A stretch of DNA of 64,000 nt, from the NCBI GenBank assembly GCA_014379345.1, contig JACMLY010000099.1, forward strand, positions 1-64,000, given 5' to 3'. The notes beneath the pieces were generated by a model that saw only the letters and a program-made list of their open reading frames with translations, did no database searches and was not told the origin of the DNA. A program made the translations under genes and the position numbers. This document shows positions 16,802 to 64,000 of this stretch, piece after piece. Numbering within the stretch: the first letter of the stretch is position 1; every line of letters starts with the position of its first letter. The DNA comes from Chitinophagaceae bacterium (GTDB lineage Bacteria > Bacteroidota > Bacteroidia > Chitinophagales > Chitinophagaceae).

Positions 16802-18058
16802 GTGGATAGAGTAGTCGTTAAAAAGAAATGGTCAACCAAACGGATCCTTAGTATAGCTGGAGTTGCCGGCATTATTTTTTTGATAGCTGGCAGCTATTAT
16901 TTCACGTCAGGCAAATCCAGGTTGAATGTGGATACCGAACGTATCACGATCACTGAAATTACTAAAGGTCCTTTCCAGGAAAATATTCCTGTGAACGGAA
17001 TTGTTCTTCCTGTTACCACCATTTACCTCGATGCCATTGAAGGGGGCCGGGTGGAAGAGCTGTATGTTGAAGATGGTGCTATTATGAAAAAAGATCAACC
17101 TATCCTCCGCCTTGCAAACACAGATCTCGAACTTAGCCTGTCGAACCAGGAAACCGCCGTTTTCGACGTTTTGACGCAAATGCAAAATACCCGCAATAAC
17201 GCAGAACAGAATACCATTCGGCAGTTAAACCAGATGGCGGAGGTTGATAATGCAATGGCAGAAGCCGAACGGATATATAAGCTGAATAAAAAGCTTTATG
17301 ATCAAAAAGTGATCGGCTCCCAGGAATTCAGATCTTCCGAAAATACATACCAGTACCAGGCCCGTAGAAAAAAATTGACAGAAGAAACTTTAAGAAATGA
17401 TTCTGCCTCAGGCAAACTACAGATCAGCCAGATGGGTCAGTCCTATTCAAGAATGCAGAATGCGTTGGGGCTTATGCGCAGAAAAGTAGGTGACCTTATT
17501 GTGAGAGCGCCGGTAGATGGCCAATTAACTTCTCTGGATGCGGAAGTAGGACAGTCAAAAAACAAGGGGCAGACGCTGGGACAACTGGATGTTTTGAGCG
17601 GGTACAAAGTGAGAGCGGATATTGATGAACATTATATCTCCCGGATCTTTATCGGCCTCACCGGCAGCTTTGATTTTGCCGGGAAATCGTACAAACTTAA
17701 AATCAAGAAAGTATATACACAGGTTTCTAACGGGCGCTTCCAGGTTGATATGGAATTTGTGGGCGATACTCCCCAGGGCATTCGTCGCGGACAAACATTA
17801 CAGATTCGTTTAGCACTCAGTGATGAAACCCAGGCCATATTACTAGCAAAAGGCGGATTCTACCAGAAAACAGGAGGTAACTGGATCTTTAAAGTCACTG
17901 AGTCGGGAAAAACAGCTTACAAAACAGATATCCAGTTAGGCCGTCAAAGCCCGGATTACTATGAAGTATTGCAGGGACTGAACCCGGGAGACAAAGTAGT
18001 AACATCGAGCTATGAAAATTACGGAGATATGCAGGAGCTGGTGCTGAAGAAGGAATAA
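16802..18058 (+). CDS. HlyD/MacA-type periplasmic adaptor
   Basis: A 418-residue membrane-fusion protein. A GTG start is the only plausible one, because an in-frame stop lies at 16796 and no ATG occurs before the membrane anchor. One N-terminal helix (about residues 16-32) anchors it. A lipoyl/barrel-sandwich half follows (IEGGRVEELYVEDGAIMKK), then a long coiled-coil hairpin (about 110-225), the second lipoyl half (VRAPVDGQLTSLDAEVGQ) and C-terminal beta-barrel domains (NGRFQVDMEFVGD, GDKVVTSSYENY). Adaptors of this kind join an inner-membrane ABC permease to an outer-membrane TolC channel. It heads the array and is followed by the ATPase gene after 132 bp. No TolC-like gene is in the window. 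Confidence 0.88.
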   Translation: MDRVVVKKKWSTKRILSIAGVAGIIFLIAGSYYFTSGKSRLNVDTERITITEITKGPFQENIPVNGIVLPVTTIYLDAIEGGRVEELYVEDGAIMKKDQPILRLANTDLELSLSNQETAVFDVLTQMQNTRNNAEQNTIRQLNQMAEVDNAMAEAERIYKLNKKLYDQKVIGSQEFRSSENTYQYQARRKKLTEETLRNDSASGKLQISQMGQSYSRMQNALGLMRRKVGDLIVRAPVDGQLTSLDAEVGQSKNKGQTLGQLDVLSGYKVRADIDEHYISRIFIGLTGSFDFAGKSYKLKIKKVYTQVSNGRFQVDMEFVGDTPQGIRRGQTLQIRLALSDETQAILLAKGGFYQKTGGNWIFKVTESGKTAYKTDIQLGRQSPDYYEVLQGLNPGDKVVTSSYENYGDMQELVLKKE

Positions 18059-18062
18059 TAAT

Positions 18063-18151
18063 GTCGACGGTCAACCGTCAACTGCAAAAAAGAATATCTG
18101 TTAATATGGAAAAAAATTCTTCCGGCGGACGGTCGTCGGTCGACCGTCGAC
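18063..18151. repeat. GTCGACGGTC-type inverted repeats
   Basis: GTCGACGGTC (18063-18072) is matched by its complement GACCGTCGAC (18142-18151). Each arm also holds smaller dyads such as GACGGT-CA-ACCGTC. It lies between the adaptor and ATPase genes and is unusually GC-rich compared with the other spacers. Confidence 0.7.
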
Positions 18152-18190
18152 GTTTCAAACAACAACCTCAAACATCAAACATACACACTC

Positions 18191-18868
18191 ATGATCAAAA
18201 TCGCAGAACTCGAAAAAATTTACCGCACTGAAGAAGTGGAAACCGTTGCCTTGAATAAATTATCCTTCGAAGTAAAAGAAGGAGAGTTTGTTGCCGTGAT
18301 GGGGCCTTCGGGATGCGGGAAATCAACGCTGCTTAATATTGTTGGATTGCTTGACGATCCCGATAAAGGCAGTTTCTTATTCAATGGCATTGAAGTAGCT
18401 GATTTTAACGAACGCAAAAGAGCAGATCTCCGCAAAAGAAATATCGGCTTTGTGTTCCAGAGCTTTAACCTGATCGATGAGCTGACTGTGTTTGAAAATG
18501 TAGAACTGCCACTCATATACCTGGGAGTGAAGGCTCCGGAAAGAAAAAAAAGGGTGGAAGCTGTGCTTGACAAAATGCAGATCATGCATCGACGCAATCA
18601 CTACCCGCAACAACTATCCGGCGGTCAGCAACAACGTGTTGCTGTTGCGCGGGCAGTGGTGAATAAACCAAAGCTGATCCTGGCAGATGAGCCCACGGGT
18701 AACCTCGATTCTTCCAATGGTAATGAAGTTATGCAACTACTCACCGATCTCAATGAACAAGGTACTACCATCATAATGGTTACACACTCTGAACACGATG
18801 CCCGCTACAGCCATCGGATCATCCGTATGCTTGATGGCCAGACGGTGACGGAGAATATTCTTGTATAG
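18191..18868 (+). CDS. LolD/MacB-type ABC transporter ATPase
   Basis: A 225-residue stand-alone nucleotide-binding protein. Walker A is GPSGCGKST (residues 38-46), the Q-loop is FVFQSF (Gln90), the signature is LSGGQQQ (from 142), Walker B is LILADEP (Glu167) and the switch histidine is MVTHSEHD (His199). The length and the TGNLDSSNG D-loop fit the LolD/MacB/FtsE group, which powers mechanotransmission permeases rather than substrate channels. It is the only ABC ATPase gene in the 47-kb array, located between the adaptor and the first permease, so it is the likely motor of that permease and possibly of all the others. Confidence 0.93.
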   Translation: MIKIAELEKIYRTEEVETVALNKLSFEVKEGEFVAVMGPSGCGKSTLLNIVGLLDDPDKGSFLFNGIEVADFNERKRADLRKRNIGFVFQSFNLIDELTVFENVELPLIYLGVKAPERKKRVEAVLDKMQIMHRRNHYPQQLSGGQQQRVAVARAVVNKPKLILADEPTGNLDSSNGNEVMQLLTDLNEQGTTIIMVTHSEHDARYSHRIIRMLDGQTVTENILV

Positions 18869-18889
18869 TTAATTCATGAGGTTAGGTTT

Positions 18890-18957
18890 AAAGTGTAAGG
18901 TTTAAAGTTAATGACGTTAAACCTTCAACCTTAAACCTTAAACCATAAACCTTCAAA
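18890..18957. repeat. 7-bp repeat arms (TTTAAGG family), inverted
   Basis: Plus-strand units GGTTTAAAGTGTAAGGTTTA face complementary TTAAACCTTCAACCTTAAAC words with only a few bases between. It fills the 95-bp gap between the ATPase and the first permease gene and could form a hairpin of about 27 bp. Confidence 0.8.
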
Positions 18958-18963
18958 ACAGCT

Positions 18964-21387
18964 ATGATCTACAATTATCTGAAAATAGCCATCCGCAACC
19001 TGCTGAAGTATAAATTCATTTCATTCATTAATCTGTTTGGATTAACAGCAGGCATTGCCTGCTGCCTGTTGATCCTTACATATATCATCAATGAATTGAG
19101 CTACGATAAATATCATCCTGATGCTGATAGAACATATCGCGTTACAAGAAGTTTCAGAAATGCGCAGACGGGAATTGTTTCATTGAATCTCGGTACGGTG
19201 GCCCCTCCGTTCGCTCCCCTACTCGTCAATGATTTCAAAGAAATCGAAAAGATTACCCAACTTCTTCCCAATGGTCGCACTCCGGTTCGTTATGGTGAAA
19301 AAATGTTCAATGAGGAAAATGTGTATTGGGGCGATGAACATTTTTTTGATTTCTTTAAGGTAAAGGTAGTCAAGGGCAATCCCGCAAAAGCACTCAATGA
19401 TCCCTATGGCATCATGTTGACAGAGGAGACAGCCAAAAAATATTTTGGCAATGAGGAACCACTCGATAAAATGATCAGACTGGATAACCAGTTGAATTTT
19501 AAAGTTACCGGTGTTTATAAAGCTTTCCCCGCTAACTCACATGTACATCCCAACATTCTTATCTCTTTCAATACGTTAAAGGATACGGCCGTTTATGGGG
19601 AAGAAAATCTGCGAACCAATTTTGGCAATAATTCCTTTCTGACATATATAAAACTGCCTAAGGATTATGATATCGGAAAAATGGAAAAGCAGTTCCCTGC
19701 TTTTCTGAACAGGCACATGCCACAGGGTGGTAAGTTCAAACCCTCCGAGGGAACGGCCCTTGCCTTGCAAAAATTAACTGATATACATCTACACTCACAA
19801 CTGGACTATGAAGCAGAAGAAAATGGAGACATTAAAAGAGTATATATATTTTCTGCCATTGCGTTATTTATCTTACTGATAGCAGGTATTAATTATATGA
19901 ATCTCTCAACCGCAAGGTCTGCACTGAGAGCCAGGGAGATCGGTGTCCGCAAAGTTGTGGGTGCACAACGAAAAGAAATCATCGCGCAGTTCTTAAGCGA
20001 ATCCGTTTTGGTTTCATGGTTAGCCATGATATTGGCCTTGCTACTAACCTGGCTGACATTACCCTGGTTAAACAAGCTATCGGGCCAGCAATTGTCGATT
20101 CATATTTTATTAAGATGGGATGTCATCGTTCCAATGGCTTTGGTTCCATTCGTGGTCGGAATTTTATCAGGCATATATCCCGCTCTTTTCATGTCATCGT
20201 TCAGGCCTGTACAGGTATTGAAGGGCTTGTTCAAAGTTGGAGGAAGCACAATTTCTTTCCGCAGGATCCTTGTAACTACACAGTTTGCTATTTCCATTGT
20301 CCTTATCATAAGTACCATTACTGTTTTTAGACAAATGCACTACATGCAGCAAAAAGAATTGGGATTTGATAAAACACATATTGTTACCCTCCCCTATTCT
20401 GCGGGCCTGAATGACGGATTCGATGCATTCAGGACTGAACTTTTATCTAATACATACATTAAAAATGCAGGACGTTCCTCAAGAATTCCAACCGGAAGAT
20501 TATTGGATGCAATGGGGGCCCGCATTAAAAGATCTGATACCCTTGAACCTGCCAATGCAGATATTAAGTTCGTATCTGCCGATCAGGATTTTATTTCAAC
20601 CTATGGCATAAAGGTTGTTTCCGGAAGAGGATTCTCGAAAGATTTTAGTACCGATACCGGTGCATTTGTTATCAATGAAGCAGCAGTTCAAGCACTCGGA
20701 TTAAACTCGGGTGAAGACGCTATCGGAAAAGATTTCGGCTATGGGAACAGAACCGGAAAACTGATTGGGGTATTTAATGATTTTCATTTTGAATCTATGC
20801 ACCAGAAAATAGTTCCGCTTGTGTTGCTCATTCCCACGTCCGCAAACGCATATGGAAACATCTCCATTAAGATTGCAGGAACCAATATTCCGGCTGCACT
20901 TTCACATATTGAAAAAACTTGGAGAAAATATTTACCTGAAACACCTTACCAGTATAATTTTCTCGACGAAAATTTCGAACGGTTGTATCAGTCGGAAGAA
21001 AGACAGAAATCCATTTTTACCGTATTTGCATTTATTGCCATTTTTATAGCCTGCCTTGGCTTATTTGGTTTATCAGCCTTCGCAATATCACAACGGATCA
21101 AGGAGATCGGGATACGCAAGGTTTTGGGAGCGAGCGTGAATACCATTGTTGCCTTGTTATCGAAAGACTTTCTAAAGCTCATTCTTATTGCAGCCGTCAT
21201 TGCATTTCCCATAGCATGGTTTGCGATGGACACCTGGCTGCAGGATTTCGCGTATCGCATCAATATACCATGGTGGATTTTTGTAGTAGCGGGAGTAATC
21301 GCCGGCATCATTGCCTTTGTAACCATCAGCTTCCAGGCGATCAGGGCTGCTATTGCGAATCCGGTGAAATCGTTACGCTCAGAATGA
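18964..21387 (+). CDS. MacB/FtsX-type ABC permease, copy 1
   Basis: An 807-residue two-module permease. Predicted layout: a cytoplasmic start (MIYNYLKIAIRNLLKYK), membrane helix 1 (about 20-41), a MacB_PCD-like periplasmic domain (about 43-290), three helices of a first FtsX domain (about 292-412), helix 5 (about 435-456), a second periplasmic domain (about 457-680) and a second FtsX domain (about 682-795). The cytoplasmic loops AREIGVRKVVGAQR (about 322) and KEIGIRKVLGASV (about 712) are the probable ATPase-contact (coupling) segments. The tail is NPVKSLRSE. This family does not translocate substrate through a pore; it transmits ATPase motion to the periplasm, as in MacB and LolCDE. With the adaptor and ATPase genes just upstream it completes a tripartite unit. 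Confidence 0.92.
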   Translation: MIYNYLKIAIRNLLKYKFISFINLFGLTAGIACCLLILTYIINELSYDKYHPDADRTYRVTRSFRNAQTGIVSLNLGTVAPPFAPLLVNDFKEIEKITQLLPNGRTPVRYGEKMFNEENVYWGDEHFFDFFKVKVVKGNPAKALNDPYGIMLTEETAKKYFGNEEPLDKMIRLDNQLNFKVTGVYKAFPANSHVHPNILISFNTLKDTAVYGEENLRTNFGNNSFLTYIKLPKDYDIGKMEKQFPAFLNRHMPQGGKFKPSEGTALALQKLTDIHLHSQLDYEAEENGDIKRVYIFSAIALFILLIAGINYMNLSTARSALRAREIGVRKVVGAQRKEIIAQFLSESVLVSWLAMILALLLTWLTLPWLNKLSGQQLSIHILLRWDVIVPMALVPFVVGILSGIYPALFMSSFRPVQVLKGLFKVGGSTISFRRILVTTQFAISIVLIISTITVFRQMHYMQQKELGFDKTHIVTLPYSAGLNDGFDAFRTELLSNTYIKNAGRSSRIPTGRLLDAMGARIKRSDTLEPANADIKFVSADQDFISTYGIKVVSGRGFSKDFSTDTGAFVINEAAVQALGLNSGEDAIGKDFGYGNRTGKLIGVFNDFHFESMHQKIVPLVLLIPTSANAYGNISIKIAGTNIPAALSHIEKTWRKYLPETPYQYNFLDENFERLYQSEERQKSIFTVFAFIAIFIACLGLFGLSAFAISQRIKEIGIRKVLGASVNTIVALLSKDFLKLILIAAVIAFPIAWFAMDTWLQDFAYRINIPWWIFVVAGVIAGIIAFVTISFQAIRAAIANPVKSLRSE

Positions 21388-23891: not shown

Positions 23892-23947
23892 ATATGTACG
23901 AGATACGAAGTACGAGGTACGAGGTACGAAGTACGAGGTAGGATGTA
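23892..23947. repeat. 7-bp direct repeat (GTACGAA family)
   Basis: Starts at the stop codon of copy 2 as GGGAATATGTACGAGATACG, then GTACGAG, GTACGAG, GTACGAA, GTACGAG, GTAGGAT, GTACGAT. All units are in one orientation, with no facing arm. Confidence 0.8.
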
Positions 23948-24028
23948 CGATTTGGAATGGGTGTCTGGATGTAAGATGTGATTTAATCAATGGACGATAA
24001 ACCATCAATTATGAATTATCAACAATTT

Positions 24029-26613: not shown

Positions 26614-29043
26614 ATGAACCAGATGCATACATTCCTGAAAATATCAGTTCGTCATCTTTGGCATAGCCGGCTTTATTCTGTTATTAATATACTGGGACTG
26701 GCTACTGGAATTACATGCATGTTGCTCGCTGTTCTTTACTGGAAATATGAACACGGTTTTGATGGCTTTCACAAGAACAATCCTCACCTGTACCGGATTA
26801 CCACCACTTTAATTGAAAACAAAGGATCACGTTCCGCAACTGTCGGTGGCACGGGCCAGGTTCAGGGGCCTGCGTTTAAAGAAGCTATCCCGGAAGTAAG
26901 ATCGTATGTACGGGTTATGGGTGGTGATATTTACAACGATGTTTTTTCGGGAAATAAAACGCTGAATCTGCAACCCCTTTTTGTAGACGATAGCTTTTTT
27001 GATGTATTTAATTTTCCCCTGCTTAGCGGTGATCCGAAGACGGTGCTAAAGGATATCAATTCAGTAGTAATTACTGAAAGCACTGCAAAAAAATTCTTCA
27101 ACAGCAGTGATGTAATAGGGAGAACACTAAATATCGATGCCGATCCTTCTTTTGAAAAACTTGGTAAACCCCTTGTCATTTCAGGTGTGGTAAAAGACCC
27201 CCCTGAAAATTCTTCACTTCAGTTTGATGCACTGTTCACATTTAGATTCATGCATCTTTCGTTCGAAGATAGCAATTGGCTAAATGCCTATTTGGGAACT
27301 TTTGTCACCCTGCATCCAAATGCAAATATTGGTGCAGTGGAAAAGAAATTCAACAAGGTTTACTCTTTCCATGCAAAACAACAATTGGCAGAAAATATCA
27401 AAACGTATGGGTATGATCCTCAAATCAGTTACGGTTTACAACGCATCACTGATATCCATCTTAATCCCCTGATGCGAACAACCGGCAATGCCGAAGCTGG
27501 CATCATCAATGGCAGCAGTCCTGTTTATTCCTACATGTTCATGGGCATCGCTTTATTTATATTATTGATGGCAGCAATCAACTTCATAAATATCAGCATT
27601 GCTAGTTCATTGAAGAGAAGTAAAGAGGTTGGAGTAAGAAAGGTTGCAGGAGGTAGCAGGACACAGATCATTTTCCAGTTCCTGCATGAATCAGCTATAC
27701 TTTGCGTGATGGCCTTCTTTTTATCGGTCATATTACTGAATATTTCATTGCCTTTATTCAATAACCTCACGGGCAAACAACTGGTTCTTTCGGAATCCTT
27801 CGATGCAAAGCTGCTCATTTATTTTATAACAGTATTAACGGGAATCATTTTACTCACCGGCGTGTATCCTGCCTATGTACTTTCGAACTTTAAGCCTTCT
27901 GAAGTATTGTACAACAAGCAGAAATTATCAGGGCGTAACGTATTAGGTCGCGGCCTCGTAGTGATGCAATTCTCGCTAACTGTATTTCTTTTGATAGCAA
28001 CTATCGTTTACTATAATCAAATGGATTATATACGTACAAAAGATCTTGGCTATAATCCCAACCAGATTATCCGTACTGCTATTGGTGGCGACAGAGATTA
28101 CAGGCAGATCATCGGTTTATTTAAAAATGAACTTGAGAAAGAACCTTCGATAAAAATGGTTTCTTTTGGAAATGATGGATACGCTGAAGATATGTATGTA
28201 AATGGTCGCGTATTTAAAGGAATATTTAAGAATGTAGATGAAAATTTTCTGCCCGCGCTGGAGATCCCTTTAAAAGCAGGCGAGAATTTTTCACCGGTCT
28301 GGACTGCAAATGAAAAAAACGGCGCCATTGTTAATGAAGCCTTCGTTAAAGCTGCCGGATTGCAACATCCCATAGGCCAATCCATCAAAATAAACAGGTA
28401 TTATGATAGTTGCCAGAAAATGATCACCGGGGTTGTAAAGGATTTCCATTTCGGATCGTTGCGCGAGCCGATCAGCCCGATGGTAATGTACATGAATGAA
28501 TGGCCCGATGGAGGCATTTGGGTAAAGTTCGAAAAATCAAAACAAAAGCATGCGATGGCAGCCATGGAACGGATATACAGGAACGCCATGCCTAATGCTA
28601 TCTATCACTATAATTTTCTGGACGAGCTGAATGCAAAACAATACCTGCAGGAACAAAGATGGCACCAGGTGATCAGCATTGCAACGATCCTTTCATTTAT
28701 TATTTGTTGCCTGGGACTTTTTGGTCTGGCACATTTATCAACCAATCAACGCATCAAAGAAATTGGTATCAGGAAAGTTTTAGGTGCTTCTGGTAGCCAG
28801 ATCGTCGCATTGCTTTCAGCTGATTTTTTAAAACTGGTAGTGATCGCTTTTGCCGTTTCAGCCCCAGTATCCTGGATAGTAATGAACAATTGGCTACAGG
28901 ATTTCGCATATAGAAAGGAGATCAGTTGGCCGGTATTTGCTTCGGCAGGTGTAATTGCTTTTTTGATCGCACTGGTAACGGTGAGTTTCCAGGCAATCAA
29001 AGCGGCCATCGCAAACCCTGTGAAGTCGTTAAGGACGGAATGA
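26614..29043 (+). CDS. MacB/FtsX-type ABC permease, copy 4
   Basis: 809 residues. It starts MNQMHTFLKISVRHLWHSR, longer than the MLKNY consensus. Coupling loops are SKEVGVRKVAGGSR (about 335) and IKEIGIRKVLGASG (about 713). The tail is NPVKSLRTE. It forms a subgroup with copy 12: both have a (P)GPxFKxAxPEVxxYVRV stretch after residue 80, a longer first periplasmic domain ending ASNP/GSSPVYSYM, and LY where others have LKG after the fourth helix (SEVLYNKQKL here, QTLYGRF there). The leader lacks the G/C hairpin and uses TTTAAGG-type repeats. Confidence 0.9.
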   Translation: MNQMHTFLKISVRHLWHSRLYSVINILGLATGITCMLLAVLYWKYEHGFDGFHKNNPHLYRITTTLIENKGSRSATVGGTGQVQGPAFKEAIPEVRSYVRVMGGDIYNDVFSGNKTLNLQPLFVDDSFFDVFNFPLLSGDPKTVLKDINSVVITESTAKKFFNSSDVIGRTLNIDADPSFEKLGKPLVISGVVKDPPENSSLQFDALFTFRFMHLSFEDSNWLNAYLGTFVTLHPNANIGAVEKKFNKVYSFHAKQQLAENIKTYGYDPQISYGLQRITDIHLNPLMRTTGNAEAGIINGSSPVYSYMFMGIALFILLMAAINFINISIASSLKRSKEVGVRKVAGGSRTQIIFQFLHESAILCVMAFFLSVILLNISLPLFNNLTGKQLVLSESFDAKLLIYFITVLTGIILLTGVYPAYVLSNFKPSEVLYNKQKLSGRNVLGRGLVVMQFSLTVFLLIATIVYYNQMDYIRTKDLGYNPNQIIRTAIGGDRDYRQIIGLFKNELEKEPSIKMVSFGNDGYAEDMYVNGRVFKGIFKNVDENFLPALEIPLKAGENFSPVWTANEKNGAIVNEAFVKAAGLQHPIGQSIKINRYYDSCQKMITGVVKDFHFGSLREPISPMVMYMNEWPDGGIWVKFEKSKQKHAMAAMERIYRNAMPNAIYHYNFLDELNAKQYLQEQRWHQVISIATILSFIICCLGLFGLAHLSTNQRIKEIGIRKVLGASGSQIVALLSADFLKLVVIAFAVSAPVSWIVMNNWLQDFAYRKEISWPVFASAGVIAFLIALVTVSFQAIKAAIANPVKSLRTE

Positions 29044-29044: not shown

Positions 29045-29098
29045 ATAATAAGTACGAAGTACGAAATACGATGTACGATGTACGATGTACGATGTGAG
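29045..29098. repeat. 7-bp direct repeat (GTACGAA family)
   Basis: Right after the stop of copy 4: AGTACGAAGTACGAAATACG, then GATGTAC-type units repeated to about 29098, one orientation. Confidence 0.78.
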
Positions 29099-34187: not shown

Positions 34188-34320
34188 ATGTACGATGTAT
34201 GAAGTTAGATGTACGAAGGTGGATGTACGAAGTTGGATGTACGAAGTTAGATGTACGAAGTTTGATGTACGGAGTTGGATGTACGAAGTTGGATGTACGA
34301 AGTTAGATGTACGAAGTGCA
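34188..34320. repeat. 14-bp (2 x 7) direct repeat, GATGTACGAAGTTG family
   Basis: About nine units of GATGTACGAAGTTG/GATGTACGAAGTTA follow the stop of copy 6. Each is two 7-bp GTACGAA-type words, so this is a higher-order form of the family at 23892. The repetitive reading frames that cross it are a by-product. Confidence 0.82.
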
Positions 34321-37038: not shown

Positions 37039-37127
37039 TTTGGTGAGAGGTGAGTAGTCAGTGCTCAGTTACAAATTTGGTGTCAAAGAATCGAACTATT
37101 TTGTTAAAAGGTAAAATATCCTCTCAA

Positions 37128-38576
37128 ATGAAAATATACAAGAAATTAATTCAGCTATTAGTTGCTGTCCTGCCTTTGTGTATACATACCAATGCTCAAA
37201 CCATTTCTCCGGATTTGCAGGATAGGGATAAATGGAGACTCGTGAACCGCATTGCCCAACCTGTCACAGAGGAAGGAAAAAAAGGGATCAGGGTAAGCGA
37301 AACACCTAATGACGGAGCAATGATCCTCAAAGATTTTGAGTTTGGAGAGGGCATCATCGAACTCGATATCAGAGGTAAAAATGTATTGCAGCAAAGTTTT
37401 GTCGGAGTTGCATTTCACGGTCAGGATAGCAGTACATACGATGCAATATATTTTCGTCCATTCAATTTTGTTAATACTGATACTGCCAGACGAAGCAGAG
37501 CCGTACAATACATTTCGATGCCAGGTTTCCCATGGGAAAAATTAAGACAGGATCATCCGGGAAAATATGAGAACAAAGTGCACCCGGTTCCAAATCCGGA
37601 TGCCTGGTTCCATGTAAAGATCACTGTTACGGGCAAACAGATCAAAGTGTTTGTTGACAATGCCGGCAAACCGTGTCTTGAAGTGGAGAAGTTAACCGGT
37701 ACCACCAAAGGGGACTTTGCTTTATGGGTAGGCAATAATTCAGGGGCTGCCTTTGCGAACCTCAGGATCACACGGCGGTCTACCGGAACAAGTGCTGCAA
37801 CGATACCATACGGAAACAATCCGGAAACAGGAAAATACTTCAATGCAGGCGATGCCCGATTATATTATGAGGTATATGGCAATGGTGATCCAATTCTGAT
37901 GTTGCATGGGGGTGTGTATGGGTACATCAGCGAATTCGAACACCTGATCCCAAAATTGGCGGAAAATCACCGGGTGATCTGTTTAGCTACACGGGGACAT
38001 GGCAAATCAGAAATTGGCAGGCAACCATATACATACAAACAAAGAGCAGAAGATGCTTATTCGCTTTTGAAGCATTTGAACATATCAAAAGCATCCGTGA
38101 TTGGTTTCAGCGATGGCGCCTACTCCGGGTATAAAATGGCAGCGTTGTACCCGGAAACGGTAATAAAACTAGTTGCGATGGGTGCCGGCGATAAAAAAAA
38201 CAACGCATCCACGGAGCGGTTTAATTATAATGAGACAGATCTGTTGAAAACAGCGGGGAACTATTTCGCCGGCTTAAGAAAACTAATGCCAGAACCTCAG
38301 CGATGGAATGAAACCCTGGCCATGTTGAATAACCTTTATAACAATGATGTGATCAGCAATGAAACATTTGAAAAAATTAAGTGTCCTGTATTGGTAATGG
38401 CCGGTGATAAAGACAATTATTCAAATATTGACAAAGTGGTGAGTAGTTACAAACAAATACCCGGGGCAATGCTATCGATTATTCCAGGCTGTGGACATGT
38501 TATTTTTTATTGCAATTTCCCGGCAGTATGGGAAGCGATGAAGGGATTTGTGAATAATGAAATAAAGAAGGGATGA
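37128..38576 (+). CDS. Exported alpha/beta hydrolase with N-terminal lectin-like domain
   Basis: 482 residues from ATG 37128, chosen over the in-frame GTG 37050 because it gives a signal peptide (MKIYKKLIQLLVAVLPLCIH, cleavage near NAQ). Residues about 25-225 form a beta-sandwich of the LamG/DUF1080 type (GIIELDIRGKN, FVGVAFHGQD, WFHVKITVTGKQIKVFVDN). Residues about 245-482 are an alpha/beta hydrolase with nucleophile elbow VIGFSDGAYSG, acid VMAGDKDNYSN and catalytic His in IPGCGHVIFY. The oxyanion region is LMLHGGVYGY. Likely a periplasmic esterase or peptidase-like enzyme; substrate unknown. It sits between permease copies 7 and 8 on the same strand. Confidence 0.8.
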   Translation: MKIYKKLIQLLVAVLPLCIHTNAQTISPDLQDRDKWRLVNRIAQPVTEEGKKGIRVSETPNDGAMILKDFEFGEGIIELDIRGKNVLQQSFVGVAFHGQDSSTYDAIYFRPFNFVNTDTARRSRAVQYISMPGFPWEKLRQDHPGKYENKVHPVPNPDAWFHVKITVTGKQIKVFVDNAGKPCLEVEKLTGTTKGDFALWVGNNSGAAFANLRITRRSTGTSAATIPYGNNPETGKYFNAGDARLYYEVYGNGDPILMLHGGVYGYISEFEHLIPKLAENHRVICLATRGHGKSEIGRQPYTYKQRAEDAYSLLKHLNISKASVIGFSDGAYSGYKMAALYPETVIKLVAMGAGDKKNNASTERFNYNETDLLKTAGNYFAGLRKLMPEPQRWNETLAMLNNLYNNDVISNETFEKIKCPVLVMAGDKDNYSNIDKVVSSYKQIPGAMLSIIPGCGHVIFYCNFPAVWEAMKGFVNNEIKKG

Positions 38577-41135: not shown

Positions 41136-41182
41136 ATATGTACGAAGTACGAAGTACGAAATACGAAGTACGAAGTACGATG
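41136..41182. repeat. 7-bp direct repeat (GTACGAA family)
   Basis: AATATGTACGAAGTACGAAG from the stop codon, then ATACGAA, GTACGAA, GTACGAT: a nearly pure 7-bp tandem of six units. Confidence 0.85.
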
Positions 41183-43689: not shown

Positions 43690-43910
43690 AAAGGTTTAAG
43701 GTTTAAAGTTTAAGGTTTAAGGTTCTCATCACAAGAAGTTATTACTGATCTGTCAGCTTTAAACCTTAAACTTTAAACCTTAAACCTTCTCGCGAAAGTG
43801 TACAATGATCATGGCCGACTACAAGAATTTATTCCTGATCTGTCAACTTTAAACCTTAAACTTTAAACCTTACACCTTCTCGCGAAAGTGTACGATTATG
43901 ATGACCGACC
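43690..43910. repeat. TTTAAGG arms plus exact-length 90-bp tandem duplication
   Basis: AAGGTTTAAGGTTTAAAGTT follows the stop codon of copy 9. Then two tandem 90-bp copies (43731-43820 and 43821-43910) each contain CTGATCTGTCA, complementary TTTAAACC repeats and CTTCTCGCGAAAGTGTAC. The second copy ends inside activator site B, and the first holds a decayed half of that site (TGTACAATGATCATGGCCGA). The remaining spacer to 44110 contains the promoter elements listed separately and no gene. Confidence 0.88.
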
Positions 43911-46534: not shown

Positions 46535-47065
46535 ATGAAACACATTCGCTTTTTATACACGATGCTCATATTAGCCCAGTCATTTGCAATGGCACAAGAA
46601 AGCGGTGACAAGCAAAAAGCTGAACAAATAGCCAAAGAAGACTTCAGCAAATCAAAATATTTAAAAAAGGAAAAATACGGTGTTGTAAAAGAGCTCAACA
46701 GAGTAATAATTTCTCAACCTGTCATCAAACAAAACAAATACGAGTATGCAGGCGTGTACACAGTACAGGATTTGGGAAACACAATAGAACTTATCATAAC
46801 ACAAAATACGATTGAAGCCATACTAATAAAAGGTAATAACGATGGCATCAACGACCTTTTTTACAAGTTGAAGAATATAGTGATAACTGATGCCTTGTTC
46901 AAGGCGGCCATGATTAATAAAAACGGAAACGAAGAAATGGTCGAAGGTGTTTTTATAAACAAAAACGATAACGGCGCCATTGATTTTGGTCTCGGCATCA
47001 AGCTGCCACAAAGTATCACCATTAATGGGCTGCATATAAACAAACTCTTCTTCAAAAAGATGTGA
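46535..47065 (+). CDS. Exported protein of unknown function
   Basis: A 176-residue protein with a signal peptide (MKHIRFLYTMLILAQSFAMA, cleavage near AQE). The mature part starts with a charged, helical stretch (GDKQKAEQIAKEDFSKSKYL) and continues with beta-rich sequence (YEYAGVYTVQDLGNTIELII, INGLHINKLFFKKM). I recognise no domain. It begins 24 bp after permease copy 10 and ends 34 bp before copy 11, with no repeat block on either side. That makes it the tightest non-permease member of the array and probably co-transcribed with both. Confidence 0.65.
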   Translation: MKHIRFLYTMLILAQSFAMAQESGDKQKAEQIAKEDFSKSKYLKKEKYGVVKELNRVIISQPVIKQNKYEYAGVYTVQDLGNTIELIITQNTIEAILIKGNNDGINDLFYKLKNIVITDALFKAAMINKNGNEEMVEGVFINKNDNGAIDFGLGIKLPQSITINGLHINKLFFKKM

Positions 47066-49499: not shown

Positions 49500-49585
49500 A
49501 TATGCACGATGTGGGGTGTGCGAAGTTGGATGTACGAAGTTGAGTGTACGAAGTTGGGTGCACGAAGTTGGGTGTACGAAGTTAG
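49500..49585. repeat. 14-bp (2 x 7) direct repeat, GTACGAAGTTGGAT family
   Basis: GTGTGCGAAGTTGGATGTAC followed by several GAAGTTGGGTGTAC-type units. Same higher-order form as at 34188. Confidence 0.8.
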
Positions 49586-52290: not shown

Positions 52291-52552
52291 ATGTTTAGGA
52301 ATTAGTTGAAAGCCGCCTTTAGGCAATTGCGAAAACAAAAAATGTATTCAGCTATACAGATTGGCGGTTTTGCGCTTGGTATTGCGGCTTGCCTATTGAT
52401 TTCGTTATTTAGCAGGAATGAACTTAGCTATCGGAGCAGGAGTTTTTGTAATGGCAGCAGTTGTTGCGATCGTAATTACGCTTATAACAATCAGTTTCCA
52501 ATCTGTTAAAGCAGCTTTGATGAACCCCGTAAGATCATTACGATCAGAATAA
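52291..52552 (+). pseudogene. Remnant of a MacB/FtsX-type permease (internally deleted)
   Basis: The N-terminal frame reads MFRN-stop-LKAAFRQLRKQKMYSAIQIG: the tyrosine codon expected at position 5 is TAG (52303-52305). After GFALGIAACLLISLFSRNELSY the sequence jumps, near 52427-52432, to the last 40 codons of a permease (IGAGVFVMAAVVAIVITLIT and tail NPVRSLRSE, stop TAA 52550-52552), now in a different frame. So about 2.1 kb (over 85 per cent of the gene) is lost, with a nonsense mutation and a frameshift. The join lies at GCTATCGGA, consistent with recombination at a few shared bases. No functional product is expected. Confidence 0.9.
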
Positions 52553-52588
52553 ATTAACTGAGGAGTATGTTAGAATGAATATCTATTT

Positions 52589-53083
52589 ATGAGGACACAA
52601 TACATGCTGATATCAATTTTCACAGTGTTGGGCTGCGGACAGATCGACAGCAGCATTAAATCAAAAGATAGTACGGCAACAATCCCTGTTACCATTTCCT
52701 ATTCGATGAAAGATCTTCATAAACTAAAATGGATAGAGGGGAAATGGAGAGGTACCCATCATACCAAACCTTTCTACGAGATCTACAGGTTTGCGAATGA
52801 CAGCACCCTGGAAATAATCAGCTATGACTGGAATGGAAAAGACAGTAGCCATTCTTCAAAAAGCAGGGTGTATTGGAAAGATGGCGCTTATTACCTGGGA
52901 GATCATTTAAATTGGAAAGTAACGGAGATCACCGATTCATCCATCATGATGCTGCCGAATAACAAGGCCTCCAATGATATTCTTTGGAAATATAGTGATA
53001 GTACCAGTTGGGATGCAATACTCAACGATAAAAAAGAAACATCTGAATATCACATGCAGGCTTATGACCCGTTTTTAAAATAA
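52589..53083 (+). CDS. Small lipoprotein, DUF6265-like
   Basis: A 164-residue protein with a lipoprotein signal: MRTQYMLISIFTVLGC gives a lipobox with Cys16. After a short linker comes LHKLKWIEGKWRGTHHTKPF, typical of small beta-barrel proteins of the DUF6265 type, followed by YEIYRFANDSTLEIISYDWN. Function unknown. It lies between the permease remnant and copy 13 and ends 65 bp before the latter's start. An envelope-anchored location fits with the other passengers of the array. Confidence 0.65.
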   Translation: MRTQYMLISIFTVLGCGQIDSSIKSKDSTATIPVTISYSMKDLHKLKWIEGKWRGTHHTKPFYEIYRFANDSTLEIISYDWNGKDSSHSSKSRVYWKDGAYYLGDHLNWKVTEITDSSIMMLPNNKASNDILWKYSDSTSWDAILNDKKETSEYHMQAYDPFLK

Positions 53084-53148: not shown

Positions 53149-55539
53149 ATGTTTAAAAATTATTTTAAAGTAGCATTCCGGAACCTGGCCCGCCACAAAT
53201 TGTTTGCATTTATAAACATTTTCGGGTTGGCATTAAGTATGTCTGTATGTTTGATTGTATTGGTCGCACTGAAGGACCAGATCAGTTATGATAAGTTTCA
53301 TCCCCATCCTGGCAGAACATATCGCATCATCACGCAACTCACTAATAGGCAAGGAAGAGAATATCGACTAGCGACATCGCCACTCCCTTTAGCAAGTAGC
53401 CTTTCAAAAGACTATGATTTTCTGAATGGATCCGTCCGAATTTATCCAATCGGATCAAGAACTGCCAGTGCTGAAACCAAAGAATTGGCAATTACCGCTG
53501 CTTTCACTGACCCGGATTTCTTTAAAGTGTTCGGTTTCCCGCTAAAATCGGGAAATGCTTCTTCTGCATTGATAAATCCCAATAGCATTGTATTAACCGA
53601 GGAAACTGCCGTAAAATATTTCGGAAATGCCGACCCGCTAGGAAAAATCCTCTTATTGGGGGAGTTGGGAAAATTCGAGGTAAAAGGTGTTCTGGCTAAA
53701 GCAAAAGATAAATCGCATATAAATTTTGAATGCCTGGTCTCGATATCCTCACTACCATACCTTGAAAGATCAGGAAAGCTCTCTCCTATTTCTGAACTAT
53801 GGAACAATGGCCCTTCCACATATACTTATGTTTCTTTAAAGGAAGGCAGTTCAAAAAAACAATTATCCCAGGCGGTCTCCGAGATCTCTTCCCGATTGAT
53901 GAAAAATGCAACTGTAGTAGGCAGGGAAAACGTTGAGTTTGATGTACAACCGCTGAATGATATTATTCTTGGCGAAGAGTTAGGAAACAATCTGGGTAAT
54001 ACCGGTTCGCGAGAAAAAGTGATCGCTACCATAGTGATCGGCTTTATTATTTTATTATCCGCTTGTTTCAATTACACAAACCTCTCTCTTGCTCGTGCTT
54101 TGAAGCGAGGGAAGGAAGTGGGTGTGCGCAAAGTGGCCGGCGCATTTCGATCTCAGATATTTTATCAGTTTATCATTGAATCCGTTGTAATAGCCCTGTT
54201 ATCATTGGGCGTTGCTGTATTTTTTTTCAAAATATTAGACGACTATGCTCCATTCGGTGGAGAGCTGATTCCGCAAGATGCAACATTTAACCTGGGTCTT
54301 GTGGGATGGCTATTGATTTTCGCGCTGTTTACAGGGCTACTTGCCGGTGCATTGCCTGCGTGGGCTCTCTCTTCTTTTAAGCCCGTTGAAGTTTTAAAGA
54401 ATTTATCGACCATAAAATTGTTTGGAAGCAATGGCTTGCGAAAAGGATTGATTGTCATTCAATTTGCACTCTCTCTTGTAATTATCGTTTTCACCTTAAC
54501 CTTTTATAAGCAATTTAAATACATGGCGAATGGTGATCCCGGATACAATGTTAAAAATATTGTCAATATTCAATTAAAGGGCGCAGACTATAAACTACTT
54601 GTCAGCAATCTTACACAGCTTAAGGGAGTTGAATCCATCTCAGCTACTTCAACCAATCTTGGCAGAAGTGCTGCCGGCTCAGTTGTTGTAAAGCAGGCAA
54701 AGGATAAGGATCCGATCGGCATGGAATTTTATGATGTTGATCCCAACTTTATAAAAAATATGGGACTTACTTTGCTAGCCGGGACGAGTTTCGATTACAA
54801 GACCACAGATAAAGAGACAAGCATTATTATTTCAGATTTAGCGAGGAAAATTCTGCAATTCAAATCGTCCGCTGATGCTATCGGGCAGATAATATGGATC
54901 AATGATACTACCGAAGTTCAGATCGCAGGAGTGTTGAAGGATTTTTATTACCGGGGACTTGAAACCCAGTTTGGACCAATGGTTCTACGCTATCGTCCAC
55001 AGGAATTTAAATATTTACATGTTAAAACAGCCGCGGCCGGTAACAAGGCTATGATGGCGTCTATCGAAAGAATATGGAATCAAACCCGTTCCCTGAAATC
55101 ATTCGAAGCAACCTGGCTTTATGATGAAATATCTGAAAGAAAGGGGGCATGGGGCACCGTCTCCATGCTGGGCTTTCTCGCTATCATCACTATCACTCTT
55201 GCATGTATGGGTTTATTGGGAATGATTGTATACAATACGGAAACACGAAAAAAAGAAATTGGCATACGCAAGGTGATGGGTGCCAGTGTTACTGCAATCA
55301 TGACTTTGCTTTCAAAAAACTTCATGCGGTTGGTCATCATCGCAGGGCTGATAGCATTGCCTATAAGTTATGGGCTTAGCTATTTCTTCTTACACATGTT
55401 CGCCAACAGGATTAATATCGGATTTGGAATTCTCTTTTTCAGTTTTATAATCATGCTATTACTCAGTTTACTGACCATCGGCTTACAGATCTATAAAGTT
55501 GCCGTGGCCAACCCGGTAAATGCTTTGAGGGCGGAGTAA
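53149..55539 (+). CDS. MacB/FtsX-type ABC permease, copy 13 (divergent)
   Basis: 796 residues from ATG 53149 (MFKNYFKVAFRNLARHK). An in-frame ATG at 53095 would add 18 residues encoded through the hairpin and is rejected. Coupling loops are GKEVGVRKVAGAFR (about 320) and KKEIGIRKVMGASV (about 701). The tail NPVNALRAE has NA for KS. Helix 1 reads NIFGLALSMSVC, with Ser for the second glycine. The usual FLDE(N/E)F stretch before helix 6 is replaced by ATWLYDEISERKGAW. It is the most divergent intact copy in the array. Confidence 0.88.
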   Translation: MFKNYFKVAFRNLARHKLFAFINIFGLALSMSVCLIVLVALKDQISYDKFHPHPGRTYRIITQLTNRQGREYRLATSPLPLASSLSKDYDFLNGSVRIYPIGSRTASAETKELAITAAFTDPDFFKVFGFPLKSGNASSALINPNSIVLTEETAVKYFGNADPLGKILLLGELGKFEVKGVLAKAKDKSHINFECLVSISSLPYLERSGKLSPISELWNNGPSTYTYVSLKEGSSKKQLSQAVSEISSRLMKNATVVGRENVEFDVQPLNDIILGEELGNNLGNTGSREKVIATIVIGFIILLSACFNYTNLSLARALKRGKEVGVRKVAGAFRSQIFYQFIIESVVIALLSLGVAVFFFKILDDYAPFGGELIPQDATFNLGLVGWLLIFALFTGLLAGALPAWALSSFKPVEVLKNLSTIKLFGSNGLRKGLIVIQFALSLVIIVFTLTFYKQFKYMANGDPGYNVKNIVNIQLKGADYKLLVSNLTQLKGVESISATSTNLGRSAAGSVVVKQAKDKDPIGMEFYDVDPNFIKNMGLTLLAGTSFDYKTTDKETSIIISDLARKILQFKSSADAIGQIIWINDTTEVQIAGVLKDFYYRGLETQFGPMVLRYRPQEFKYLHVKTAAAGNKAMMASIERIWNQTRSLKSFEATWLYDEISERKGAWGTVSMLGFLAIITITLACMGLLGMIVYNTETRKKEIGIRKVMGASVTAIMTLLSKNFMRLVIIAGLIALPISYGLSYFFLHMFANRINIGFGILFFSFIIMLLLSLLTIGLQIYKVAVANPVNALRAE

Positions 55540-58462: not shown

Positions 58463-58520
58463 TGTACGATGTGGATGTACGAAGTACGAGGTACGAAGTT
58501 GGAAGTACGAAGGGGTGTTC
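58463..58520. repeat. 7-bp direct repeat (GTACGAA family)
   Basis: AATATGTACGATGTGGATGT, then ACGAAGT/GTACGAG-type units after the stop of copy 14. Confidence 0.75.
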
Positions 58521-61201: not shown

Positions 61202-61300
61202 GGTACGATGTACGAAGTACGAAGTACGATGTACGAAGTACGAAGTACGATGTACGAAGTACGAAGTACGATGTACGATGTATGAAGTACGATGTACGAT
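61202..61300. repeat. 7-bp direct repeat (GTACGAA family), about 14 units
   Basis: The longest pure block: GTACGAT, GTACGAA, GTACGAA repeated as a 21-bp super-unit about three times, then further GTACGAT/GTATGAA units, all in one orientation, directly after the stop of copy 15. Confidence 0.9.
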
Positions 61301-61409: not shown

Positions 61410-61829
61410 ATGCTTACAAACTATCTTAAAATCGCCTGGCGTAATCTACTGAAGAGCAAATGGTATTCTTCTATCAATATCATCGGGCTTGCAACCGGTA
61501 TGGCGGTCGCATTACTGATCGGGTTGTGGATATGGGATGAGTTATCATTTGATAAATATCACCGCAATTATGATAAGATCGCCCAGTTAATGACAACCCA
61601 GACTTTCAATGACCAAACAGGAACCGGACCTGCTGTTTCGATGGCAATGGGAATGGAATTGCGTTCAAAGAATACCAGTGATTTTAAATATGTAACTCTT
61701 GCATCCTGGAACTTTGAACATATAATTATGGTGGGTGAAAAAAAATTGACACATTCAGGCATGTGGGCCCAGCCAGAATTTCCTTTATTACTTTCTTTAA
61801 AAATAATAAAAGGCAGCATCCGTTGTTGA
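61410..61829 (+). pseudogene. Truncated MacB/FtsX-type permease (N-terminal part only)
   Basis: An open frame of 139 codons covering helix 1 and the start of the first periplasmic domain (MLTNYLKIAWRNLLKSKWYS; GLWIWDELSFDKYHRNYDKI). It is closest to copy 9, with which it stays alignable to LSLKI(V/I)KG. The frame then ends in four unrelated residues. About 650 residues, including both FtsX domains and all coupling loops, are missing, so it cannot act as a permease. The stop codon falls within a 9-bp inverted repeat at the breakpoint. The leader is still of the array type. Confidence 0.88.
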
Positions 61830-61847: not shown

Positions 61848-61879
61848 CTATACTTAAACTTTAAATAAAAACAATCAAT

Positions 61880-62917
61880 ATGAAAAAGTATTTACTGTTT
61901 TTGATCCTGATAGCCTCCGTGTTCTTAGTACAGGCACAATCGAAAGAAGAACCCTATCAAACAAAATCATTGGCCAATGAGTCGATCAAAAATGTAAAAG
62001 TAGAAACATCCGGAGGAAGCATTTCCGTTATGGGCGTAAGCAGTTCGGAGTCGCGGATAGAAGTATATGTAAGGCCAAACAATGGCAAAGAGAACAGCCT
62101 GACAAAAGAAGAGATTCAGAAAAGGCTTAGCGAAGATTATGACCTGAACATTTCAGTAAGCAATAATAAACTCACTGCTATTGCCAGGCCAAAAGAAAGA
62201 AATATGAACTGGAAAAGAGCCCTGAATATTTCTTTTAAGATCTATTCTCCACAAACAATTACTACAGATCTTTCCACAAGCGGAGGCAGCATTCATCTGA
62301 GCAATGTAACCGGCTTGCAAGACTTCACCACAAGTGGCGGCAGCCTGCATATTGACAAGGTGGGTGGAGAAATAAATGGAAGAACTTCCGGTGGCAGTAT
62401 TCATCTAAAAGATTCTAAAGACAAAATTGATCTCTCGACAAGTGGCGGAAGCATACACGCCGATAACTGCAGTGGTGAGATCAAGCTTACAACTTCCGGA
62501 GGTTCATTAAAATTGCAAGATCTGAAAGGACAAATAAAGGCAAGTACAAGTGGAGGCAGTGTTATTGGCAATACGATACAAGGTGAATTATCGGCACATA
62601 CCTCTGGTGGTAATATCAGGCTGGAAGATCTTTCCTGCAGCCTGGAAACTTCTACAAGCGGCGGACACATTGATGTGGCCATTAAAGAATTTGGAAAATA
62701 TGTTACCATCACCAATTCAGGAGGCAATATCAATCTGCAGATCCCAAATAATAAAGGGATCGATCTGAAACTCAGAGGAGATAAAATCAATACGACCACG
62801 CTAACCAATTTCAGCGGCAGCGTGGAGGACGATGAAATAGACGGCAAATTAAATGGCGGTGGGATACCGGTTACAGTACGCGCAGGAAGTGGAAGAATAC
62901 AGCTGGCAATGAAATAG
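61880..62917 (+). CDS. Exported DUF4097-type beta-repeat protein
   Basis: A 345-residue protein with a signal peptide (MKKYLLFLILIASVFLVQAQ). About ten copies of a TSGGSIHL-type strand recur, mostly about every 18-20 residues from about residue 132 on (STSGGSIHL, TTSGGSLHI, RTSGGSIHL, STSGGSIHA, TTSGGSLKL and so on). This pattern predicts a right-handed beta-solenoid, as in DUF4097/DUF2807 proteins. These are envelope or surface proteins of unclear role. An outlying repeat (ETSGGSISV) stands near residue 44. It lies between the truncated permease and the partial sixteenth copy and is the last of the four exported passengers. Confidence 0.78.
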   Translation: MKKYLLFLILIASVFLVQAQSKEEPYQTKSLANESIKNVKVETSGGSISVMGVSSSESRIEVYVRPNNGKENSLTKEEIQKRLSEDYDLNISVSNNKLTAIARPKERNMNWKRALNISFKIYSPQTITTDLSTSGGSIHLSNVTGLQDFTTSGGSLHIDKVGGEINGRTSGGSIHLKDSKDKIDLSTSGGSIHADNCSGEIKLTTSGGSLKLQDLKGQIKASTSGGSVIGNTIQGELSAHTSGGNIRLEDLSCSLETSTSGGHIDVAIKEFGKYVTITNSGGNINLQIPNNKGIDLKLRGDKINTTTLTNFSGSVEDDEIDGKLNGGGIPVTVRAGSGRIQLAMK

Positions 62918-63152
62918 TGAATAACCAATGGTGAATAGTGAATATCGATTAGGCATAAAGTTTATCAACTACAAAAAGCTCTCCGTCCCCTCTGTGCCTA
63001 CCCTCCGATACCTCTGTGGTAAAATTGGTCTTGACCGTAGGAAGTCTTCGAATGCGAAGAGATTTAACCACAGAGGCACAGGAGGGAAAGCACAGAGATA
63101 CACAGAGTGATGATATTGTTCCACAACGGCAAATTGTTAAATAAAAAAATCT
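62918..63152. repeat. Spacer with CCTCTGTGG/CCACAGAGG inverted repeat
   Basis: GTGAATA words after the stop codon, then CTCTGTGCCTACCCTCC and ACCTCTGTGGTAAA (about 62981-63024), answered by TTTAACCACAGAGGCACAGG and AAAGCACAGAG (about 63063-63098). CTTCGAATGCGAAG lies in the centre. A long imperfect hairpin; no gene. Confidence 0.8.
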
Positions 63153-64000
63153 ATGCTCAAAAATTATTTCAAAGTTGCACTCCGCAATCTTTCTAAAAAT
63201 AAAAGCTCAACGATCATCAATGTGATTGGTCTTAGTACGGGATTGATCTGTTTTATTTTGATCTTTCTATTTGTGAAAGATGAATTGAGCTATGACCGCT
63301 TTAATAAAGAGCCTGAGCAGGTATACCGTATCGTAAAAGATTTTGTAAATGACGATAAATCGCGTATCCCCGATGCTACTACCCCACCCGCACTGGCACC
63401 TGCAATGCAGAAAGATTTACCCGAAGTGGCCCAGGTAACCAGGCTATTTCCTTCCTGGGGAAGAAGGTATATATTACAGGTCGGGGACAAAAAAATGAAC
63501 GAGCAGGGATTGATGCGCGTCGACAGTAATTTTTTCGAAGTATTTAATTTCCCTTTCTTAAAAGGCAACCAACAATCGGCCTTTAAACAATCCAGGTCGA
63601 TCATTCTTACTGAATCATCAGCAAAAAAATATTTTGGTGAGCAGGATCCTATTGGCAAAACCATTAAGCTGGATATAGACAATGGCACCGACTATGCAGT
63701 AACTGCCGTATTAAGAGATGTTCCTTCCACTTCGCATTTCAGATTCGATTTCCTGATACCATTGAAATTTGGCAACACAGATCTCAGTACTGAATGGGGA
63801 TGGTATAATTTCTATACCTACGCAAGGCTTAAACCTGGCGTAAATCCGGAAATTTTTGAAAGCAAGCTGCAGCCATTATTTAAAAAGTACCAGCCGGATA
63901 ATACCAATATTTTTTACTCTCAGGCTTTAACCGATATACACCTCGATTCAAGATTGAAATGGGAACTTGGAAATAATGGAGATCGCTCCTATGTACATAT
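63153..64000 (+). CDS. MacB/FtsX-type ABC permease, copy 16 (partial, runs off window)
   Basis: The first 282 codons are present and the frame is open to the window edge. It starts MLKNYFKVALRNLSKNKSST, helix 1 is NVIGLSTGLICFILIFLFV, and the first periplasmic domain shows KKYFGEQDPIGKTIKLD and VTAVLRDVPSTSHFRFDFL. The next block, HLDSRLKWELGNNGDRSYVH, matches the lead-in to helix 2 of the other copies, so the cut falls just before the first FtsX domain. It has neither the C/G hairpin nor a GGCATA element. Its presence shows the array continues to the right. Confidence 0.88.
   Translation, partial: MLKNYFKVALRNLSKNKSSTIINVIGLSTGLICFILIFLFVKDELSYDRFNKEPEQVYRIVKDFVNDDKSRIPDATTPPALAPAMQKDLPEVAQVTRLFPSWGRRYILQVGDKKMNEQGLMRVDSNFFEVFNFPFLKGNQQSAFKQSRSIILTESSAKKYFGEQDPIGKTIKLDIDNGTDYAVTAVLRDVPSTSHFRFDFLIPLKFGNTDLSTEWGWYNFYTYARLKPGVNPEIFESKLQPLFKKYQPDNTNIFYSQALTDIHLDSRLKWELGNNGDRSYVH

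Follow-up and report, generated by a model that had tools for sequence, protein, structure and literature searches.

Duplicated permeases that lack an ATPase form a large and mostly unexplained class. The family nearest to the permeases described here, ADOP (acidobacterial duplicated orphan permease; NCBIfam TIGR03434), has proteins of ~800 amino acids (aa) with duplicated MacB_PCD and FtsX domains and occurs in large paralogous sets, usually without an adjacent ATPase gene. The darobactin exporter DarBCD has one such duplicated permease with a separate adaptor and a separate ATPase, and Escherichia coli YbbAP(-TesA) has one single-chain duplicated permease per ATPase and is not known to use a HlyD/outer membrane efflux protein (OEP) conduit. 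MacAB-TolC combines an adaptor, a type VII permease with MacB periplasmic domains and a TolC-type duct; the MacB ATPase is described as fused to one permease half (PMC5985334). A single ATPase or module serving several membrane subunits is a feature of FhuC, the MsiK-type ATPases and the ECF modules: PMC10147376 credits FhuC with energising at least four importers, and in PMC7755397 S-components are proposed to compete for one ECF module. Twenty-eight and 33 copies of such duplicated permeases are given for two Dyadobacter genomes in PMC11573002. Here we describe a 64,000-nucleotide stretch from a Chitinophagaceae bacterium (GenBank assembly GCA_014379345.1, contig JACMLY010000099.1; hereafter the window) in which genes for one HlyD-type adaptor and one LolD/DarD-like ABC ATPase (ATP1) are followed by an array of duplicated permease genes; a second ATPase gene (ATP2) and a TolC-type OEP gene lie on another contig of the same genome. 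The best explanation, to which we assign a probability of about 0.6, is a MacAB-TolC-like type VII exporter in which a single motor and conduit are common to a diversified permease repertoire. This reading fits best because of the co-occurrence of motor and permease genes, the motor copy number, the conservation of the coupling elements and a shared promoter motif. Among the top-listed matches of searches in the open-access PubMed Central literature, which mostly lacks subscription papers, no report dealt with this locus or described type VII permeases with a common motor.

The window consists of bases 1 to 64000 of a contig of 65928 bases (C116) in a 5.14-Mb assembly of 173 contigs. All 15 complete permease open reading frames (ORFs) lie on the + strand between 18964 and 61194, and 15/15 match both the ADOP and the DarB NCBIfam models, in agreement with the initial annotation, which had counted 15 complete copies on one strand behind one HlyD-type and one LolD-type gene. 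The lengths given there are 792 to 821 codons; the ORFs listed have 792 to 829 aa, and the 829-aa ORF (P5) probably starts at 29241, since homologues align from its residue 27. ADOP is the best NCBIfam match for 15/15 permeases, with E-values of 5.9e-72 to 8.8e-104 (beyond chance) and one near-full-length match in 13, the match being in two pieces for those at 26614 and 47100. Like ADOP, the array permeases have two permease copies per chain and no ATPase domain; P1, for example, has two MacB_PCD and two FtsX stretches. Their scores of 243 to 348 bits miss the curated ADOP cut-off of 622.3 bits in every case. The best NCBIfam matches for HlyD and ATP1 are among the darobactin exporter models (NF038008, NF038010, NF038007), with scores for all three again short of the equivalog cut-offs (DarB, 110 to 195 of 700 bits; DarC, 166.7 of 450; DarD, 300.3 of 375), and the YbbP equivalog model (NF041854, cut-off 999) scored 21.3 and 27.8 bits in 2/15 permeases and was unlisted in 13. 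The locus departs from ADOP in the dedicated HlyD-ATP1 and ATP2-OEP set that accompanies the permeases, from DarBCD in the number of permeases (no peptide-maturation genes were noticed among the ORFs examined) and from MacB in that the ATPase is separate and the permease duplicated and multiplied. FhuC, the MsiK-type ATPases and the ECF modules are importers, whereas here up to 44 type VII permeases are found in one genome. With an FtsX-type transmembrane (TM) bundle and MacB-like periplasmic domains, the permeases belong to the type VII (MacB-like) ABC superfamily. As judged by sequence comparison and a structural model, they are distant relatives of ADOP and DarB with a predicted fold nearest that of YbbP.

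The AlphaFold2 model of permease P15 (pLDDT, 86.3; pTM, 0.80) has E. coli YbbP as its nearest solved fold (Z, 25.0; root mean square deviation, 9.3; 663 aligned; Foldseek E-value, 1e-18) and also matches MacB and LolCDE. Short helices are predicted at residues 326-334, 715-723 and 803-809, the first two corresponding to the two TM2-TM3 type coupling helices of the one-chain YbbP. MacB is described as touching its ATPase domain with a major coupling helix (TM2-TM3) and a minor one at the C terminus (PMC5985334), and YbbP as a duplicated permease that contacts each YbbA via coupling helices (PMC12646458). An alignment of 71 permeases (21 from this genome, its contig-edge copy being omitted; two of 73 chosen sequences are not included) has 13 invariant columns. 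Seven of these lie in the coupling helices and the C-terminal helix (in P15 numbering: first coupling helix, E328, K333 and G336; second coupling helix, E717, R721 and G725; C-terminal helix, P803); the other six are in other parts of the chain. Mean conservation is 0.81 for the second coupling helix, 0.75 for the C-terminal tail and 0.67 for the first coupling helix, compared with 0.37 and 0.36 for the periplasmic domains. On these values, the coupling helices rank with the permease segments of highest conservation. Of seven components compared, ATP1 varies least, with a mean identity of 87.0% to six genomes (ATP2, 77.6%; two other LolD-type ATPases, 78.5 and 73.0%; regulator, 73.0%; HlyD, 65.7%; OEP, 44.7%), a value that would fit a hub with many partners and is not proof of one.

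Motor and permease genes occur together. Across 18 genomes, HlyD was present once in each of the 10 that have permeases and absent from all 8 that do not. In a survey of 60 genomes of the family, used for the presence of permeases only (their numbers come from separate counts) and with ATP1 scored as present at 70% identity or more, 28 genomes had both ATP1 and permeases, 1 had ATP1 only, 0 had permeases only and 31 had neither (Fisher p = 3e-16, not corrected for relatedness). More widely, HlyD (E-value, 1e-60) was found in 54/198 Bacteroidota genomes and was single-copy in 53. The number of motor genes does not follow the number of permeases: three single-contig genomes with 2 (G007), 19 and 44 (G069) permeases each have one ATP1 and one ATP2, and over 10 genomes the number of ATPases did not track that of permeases (Spearman coefficient, 0.21; p = 0.56). 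No ATP1- or ATP2-like ORF was found in 46 kb around a second G069 array of 13 permeases, nor in seven further dispersed permease regions of G069 and G032. The initial annotation had named a matching set of ATPases that co-vary with individual permeases as evidence that would speak against a single motor; we looked for such a set and did not find it.

The gene layout recurs in relatives. We sampled the best 80 of 586 loci, whose record titles mostly name genera of Chitinophagaceae and Sphingobacteriaceae. A divergent regulator precedes HlyD in 79/80, with a histidine kinase (HK) kept beside it in most; ATP1 is the next recognised gene after HlyD in 78/80, the other two loci ending just past HlyD; and a permease is the next recognised gene after ATP1 in 75/76. 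ATP2 is within reach in 9 loci, with an OEP gene adjoining in 7. The full order, regulator/HlyD-ATP1-permeases-ATP2-OEP, emerges from the synteny comparison that had been suggested, in loci of further relatives with 2 permeases in G007, 3 in G009, 5 (one short) in G011, 6 in each of G005 and G012, and 7 in G041. Variants also exist: the ATP2-OEP pair is separate from HlyD-ATP1 in G010 and G069, the OEP gene lies upstream of HlyD and one permease between HlyD and ATP1 in G032, and permeases (L071) or ATP2-OEP (L126) stand between regulator and HlyD. Permease order and kind vary between loci.

The initial annotation listed one ATPase and no TolC-like gene. Both statements hold within the window, where no second ATPase of this type was seen; for the genome they do not, since ATP2 and a TolC-type OEP that belongs to the system lie at C122:8463-10617. 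The two ATPases share ~51% identity, and each retains the Walker A, Q-loop, LSGGQ and H-loop motifs. Contig C122 begins within a permease, which is followed by two further permeases, ATP2 and OEP. It opens with the 119 bases found in C116 from 65685 onwards, and C116 itself ends in 119 bases that copy a stretch 315 bases upstream (L039 5811-5929 versus 5496-5614). Because an overlap of exactly 119 bases, seen twice, resembles an assembler k-mer (k = 119 is usual in MEGAHIT), C116 and C122 probably adjoin in the assembly graph. An apparent short permease ORF at the end of C116 is probably an assembly-graph loop, as the self-repeat of the last 119 bases suggests. Joined, the contigs would hold 19 intact permeases, flanked by HlyD-ATP1 on one side and by ATP2-OEP on the opposite side; the array first noted is only part of the locus. 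The gene set of a tripartite pump is present, HlyD in the window and OEP on C122, as it is in relatives that have OEP beside ATP2, and assembly of adaptor, permease and duct for efflux is predicted from these genes. The same genome also has an ordinary one-to-one pair, a LolD-type ATPase followed by its own 857-aa FtsX/MacB_PCD permease, on C81 (L043 4510-7826).

A promoter motif links the genes of the system. The core TGTATC[AG]AAA occurred in the HlyD direction in 55/73 regulator-HlyD regions, in the reverse direction in 0 and in shuffles in 0.1, and 63 aligned sites extend it to TGTATCRAAASCGNACA, the first 10 logo positions being fixed by site selection. TGGCA follows, mostly after 90-92 bases (36 cases) or 68-69 bases (15 cases), two helical turns less. 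Within the window the core has a single occurrence, at 16594 (chance expectation for 64 kb, 0.57); on C122 it precedes ATP2. With up to one mismatch allowed, 13 genomes yielded 53 sites, versus 4 for a backward control pattern. Of these 53, 38 are correctly oriented and no more than 450 bases ahead of a permease, HlyD or ATP2 gene (0.04 expected), a count in which the G032 site heads an OEP-HlyD unit, the G041 permeases are not entered and this genome contributes only permeases outside P1 to P15. Among the remaining 15, a closer look assigned one site to a permease and another to a unit comprising an esterase-like gene and a permease. In G069, 14/15 sites are at system genes and 32/44 permeases are in site-headed units, and three permease-free genomes had 1, 0 and 0 sites. 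The esterase-like unit (L193 143-3908, G009:C11) encodes an esterase-like secreted protein, so classed by eye, and then the permease; together with the hydrolase inside the array (37050), it recalls YbbAP-TesA. Sites L187 (G000:C19) and L188 (G032:C1 near 2293275) have no permease nearby and lie upstream of small ORFs (95 and 126 aa) that include a hydrophobic segment, possibly extra members of the regulon.

The linked response regulator (RR) is the natural candidate for binding the motif. It has GAFTDA here and in 63/79 relatives (exact GAFTGA in 1); the regulon may depend on sigma-54. Sigma54_DBD (rpoN) was found in 6/6 genomes searched, one of them permease-free. TGGYAN8GC occurred in 2/73 HlyD-direction and 12/73 RR-direction regions (1.3 in shuffles), and TGGCAC in 33/73 HlyD-direction regions (1 reverse; 3.3 in shuffles). 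A search of the HlyD upstream regions for the sigma-54 consensus yielded only a weak signal (mean best scores: forward, 10.42; reverse, 9.98; shuffled, 9.71), and what emerged in its stead were the 17-base motif and the TGGCA element. Two TM segments with next to no loop are a feature of kinases that sense through BceAB-type transporters, and the HK of this locus could conceivably sense envelope-active compounds by way of the permeases.

In the exporter that we propose, ATP1 would be the motor, probably together with ATP2, and the HlyD adaptor and OEP/TolC duct would form the conduit. Each permease chain would provide both TM halves and both periplasmic domains, and would recruit two ATPase subunits (an ATP1 pair or ATP1/ATP2) via its conserved coupling helices. 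ATP-driven motion of the TM bundle would push a substrate, set by the variable periplasmic domains, from the periplasm or the outer leaflet into the HlyD-OEP conduit. Acting via the one 17-base motif, the kinase and the sigma-54-type regulator would activate the array, the motor genes and many of the dispersed permeases. In its most specific form, this is a shared-motor export platform: up to 44 one-chain permeases, each specific for its substrate and encoded in arrays or elsewhere in the genome, would dock interchangeably with a single set of ATPase, adaptor and duct, and one two-component regulon would control most of them; we rate the chances of this form as marginally better than even. The single motor with many interchangeable permeases of the initial annotation is retained as the best fit to the genomic evidence, amended to two ATPase genes and with physical sharing of the ATPase as a prediction.

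Several observations weigh against a shared motor. The case for permease-ATPase binding and for transport is genomic. G063 has ATP1 and no permease at the threshold used (its genome is 83% complete), G053 has an ATP2-like match (55%) without permeases, G030 carries ATP1-like and ATP2-like genes in two copies each, a third match is present in both G043 and G048, and no ATP2 was seen in G002 and G044, both fragmented genomes. At locus L114, ATP2 directly follows ATP1, with no permease between. TM stretches 310-322 and 694-706 of the permease score 0.76, no less than the first coupling helix. For the motif, 13/53 sites are at other or unclear genes, 12/44 G069 permeases are in units without it and no site precedes HlyD of G009, G012 and G041, in each case at up to one mismatch; the exact core is within 400 bases upstream of only 5/280 permeases of the fetched loci, most of which are inside arrays.

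The general type VII ATPases of the cell, such as LolD and FtsE, might instead mainly power the permeases, leaving ATP1 and ATP2 to serve one or a few. Other LolD-type ATPases are indeed present in 18/18 genomes searched, but these include the permease-free ones, whereas the presence of HlyD and ATP1 tracks that of the permeases, and the motif is common to ATP2-OEP, HlyD-ATP1 and dispersed permeases; we consider this explanation unlikely. We are a shade more sceptical that most permeases work without an ATPase, for example as envelope sensors or scaffolds, with a few forming pumps with ATP1/ATP2. Such a role would suit the family name "orphan", the lack of an ATPase beside the dispersed copies examined and the two-component system adjoining the array, but it sits poorly with the high conservation, across 71 permeases, of the coupling helices and C-terminal helix that touch the ATPase in MacB (PMC5985334).

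The ATPases could also belong to two separate machines, ATP1 with one permease set and ATP2 with another, as their low mutual identity, the intact motifs of both and the distance of ATP2-OEP from ATP1 in G010 and G069 would allow. This is improbable in view of G007, which has both ATPases for just two permeases, of the one HlyD per genome in 10/10, and of the placement of any permease kind between ATP1 and ATP2. Less probable still is the dosage or antigenic-variation-like reservoir raised by the initial annotation, in which the array would serve recombination or amplification. A tandem array with two remnants, intergenic heptamer repeats and the 119-base self-repeat at the contig end are what such a reservoir might leave, but the 22 permeases examined in this genome (700 aa or more) have a median identity of 35% and a maximum of 57%, and each of the 22 is closer to one of 261 permeases from other genomes than to any in its own. 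Direct repeats in the array, as judged on 20 of 22 families, are short and are diverged within genes, and the heptamers occur genome-wide. On these identities we reject recent amplification, and the permease set is, on this sequence evidence, a product of long-term birth and death of distinct subfamilies, in which copies were also lost, as the remnants show. A motor shared by the permeases remains the explanation that we prefer.

The features of the locus are listed in Table 1. The two broken copies and the partial last copy of the initial annotation were confirmed, the latter being cut by the window end alone. Non-permease ORFs interrupt the array at 37050, 46535, 52589 and 61880. Signal-peptide-like starts, as a hint of cargo, occurred in 9/18 between-permease ORFs inside the array versus 183/586 outside; the rule is crude, several of the 18 look spurious, and we claim no enrichment. 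Tandem repeats of TACGAAG/TACGATG-type heptamers or 14-mers stand right after permease stops (23896-23950, 29052-29095, 34194-34317, 41140-41180, 49506-49583, 58477-58512 and 61203-61299), and a second repeat type, AAACCTT, stands between other genes. We rejected the heptamers as array-specific: across the genome, TACGAWG matches 68 times when overlaps are counted (control, 1). A 90-base unit occurs twice (91% matches) between P9 and P10, at 43731-43909. Upstream of the locus, 9190-13377 encodes a large hybrid two-component protein (Reg_prop repeats, Y_Y_Y, kinase and receiver domains), and bases 1-488 contain several 18-20-base tandem repeats. Rfam and tRNA searches of the window gave no matches.

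Table 1. Features of the locus, in window coordinates
Feature	Coordinates	Strand	Remarks
Histidine kinase (HK)	13504..14847	-	HATPase_c; two TM segments, nearly loopless; hydropathy peaks 10-28, 32-50
Response regulator (RR)	15014..16375	-	Response_reg, Sigma54_activat, HTH_8; GAFTDA variant of sigma-54 activator domain
17-base motif TGTATCRAAASCGNACA	16594..16610	+	Upstream of HlyD; TGGCA ~92 bases further on, counted by eye
HlyD-type periplasmic adaptor	16802..18058	+	Family match; single copy in relatives
ATP1, LolD/DarD-like ABC ATPase	18191..18868	+	Walker A, Q-loop, LSGGQ, H-loop present
Permease P1, duplicated MacB_PCD+FtsX	18964..21387	+	Family matches
Permease P2	21486..23888	+	Family matches
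Permease P3	24078..26456	+	Family matches
Permease P4	26614..29043	+	Family matches
Permease P5	29163..31652	+	Family matches; likely start 29241
Permease P6	31767..34181	+	Family matches
Permease P7	34573..37038	+	Family matches
Accessory ORF, alpha/beta hydrolase with 3-keto-disaccharide hydrolase domain	37050..38576	+	Domain matches
Permease P8	38754..41132	+	Family matches
Permease P9	41308..43689	+	Family matches
Permease P10	44111..46510	+	Family matches
Accessory ORF	46535..47065	+	No family match
Permease P11	47100..49496	+	Family matches
Permease P12	49711..52098	+	Family matches
Broken permease	52291..52553	+	N-terminal piece, stop at codon 5, adjoining C-terminal piece
Accessory ORF	52589..53083	+	Lipoprotein-like start; no family match
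Permease P13	53095..55539	+	Family matches; homology starts at 53149
Permease P14	56003..58456	+	Family matches
Permease P15	58762..61194	+	Family matches; structure modelled
Broken permease	61410..61829	+	N-terminal piece only; ~135 residues align to permease, remainder diverges
Accessory ORF	61880..62917	+	TSGGS repeats, signal-peptide-like start; no Pfam match
Permease P16	63153..64000	+	Cut by window end; intact in contig, 793 aa

If the shared-motor platform exists, it would be to export what the ECF modules are to import, and the orphan permeases of Bacteroidota would have an explanation. ABC export could then diversify by multiplying the substrate-handling subunit alone, and the question of which ATPase drives orphan permeases would become directly testable, with the motif as a handle for finding further members of the system and the signal that induces it.

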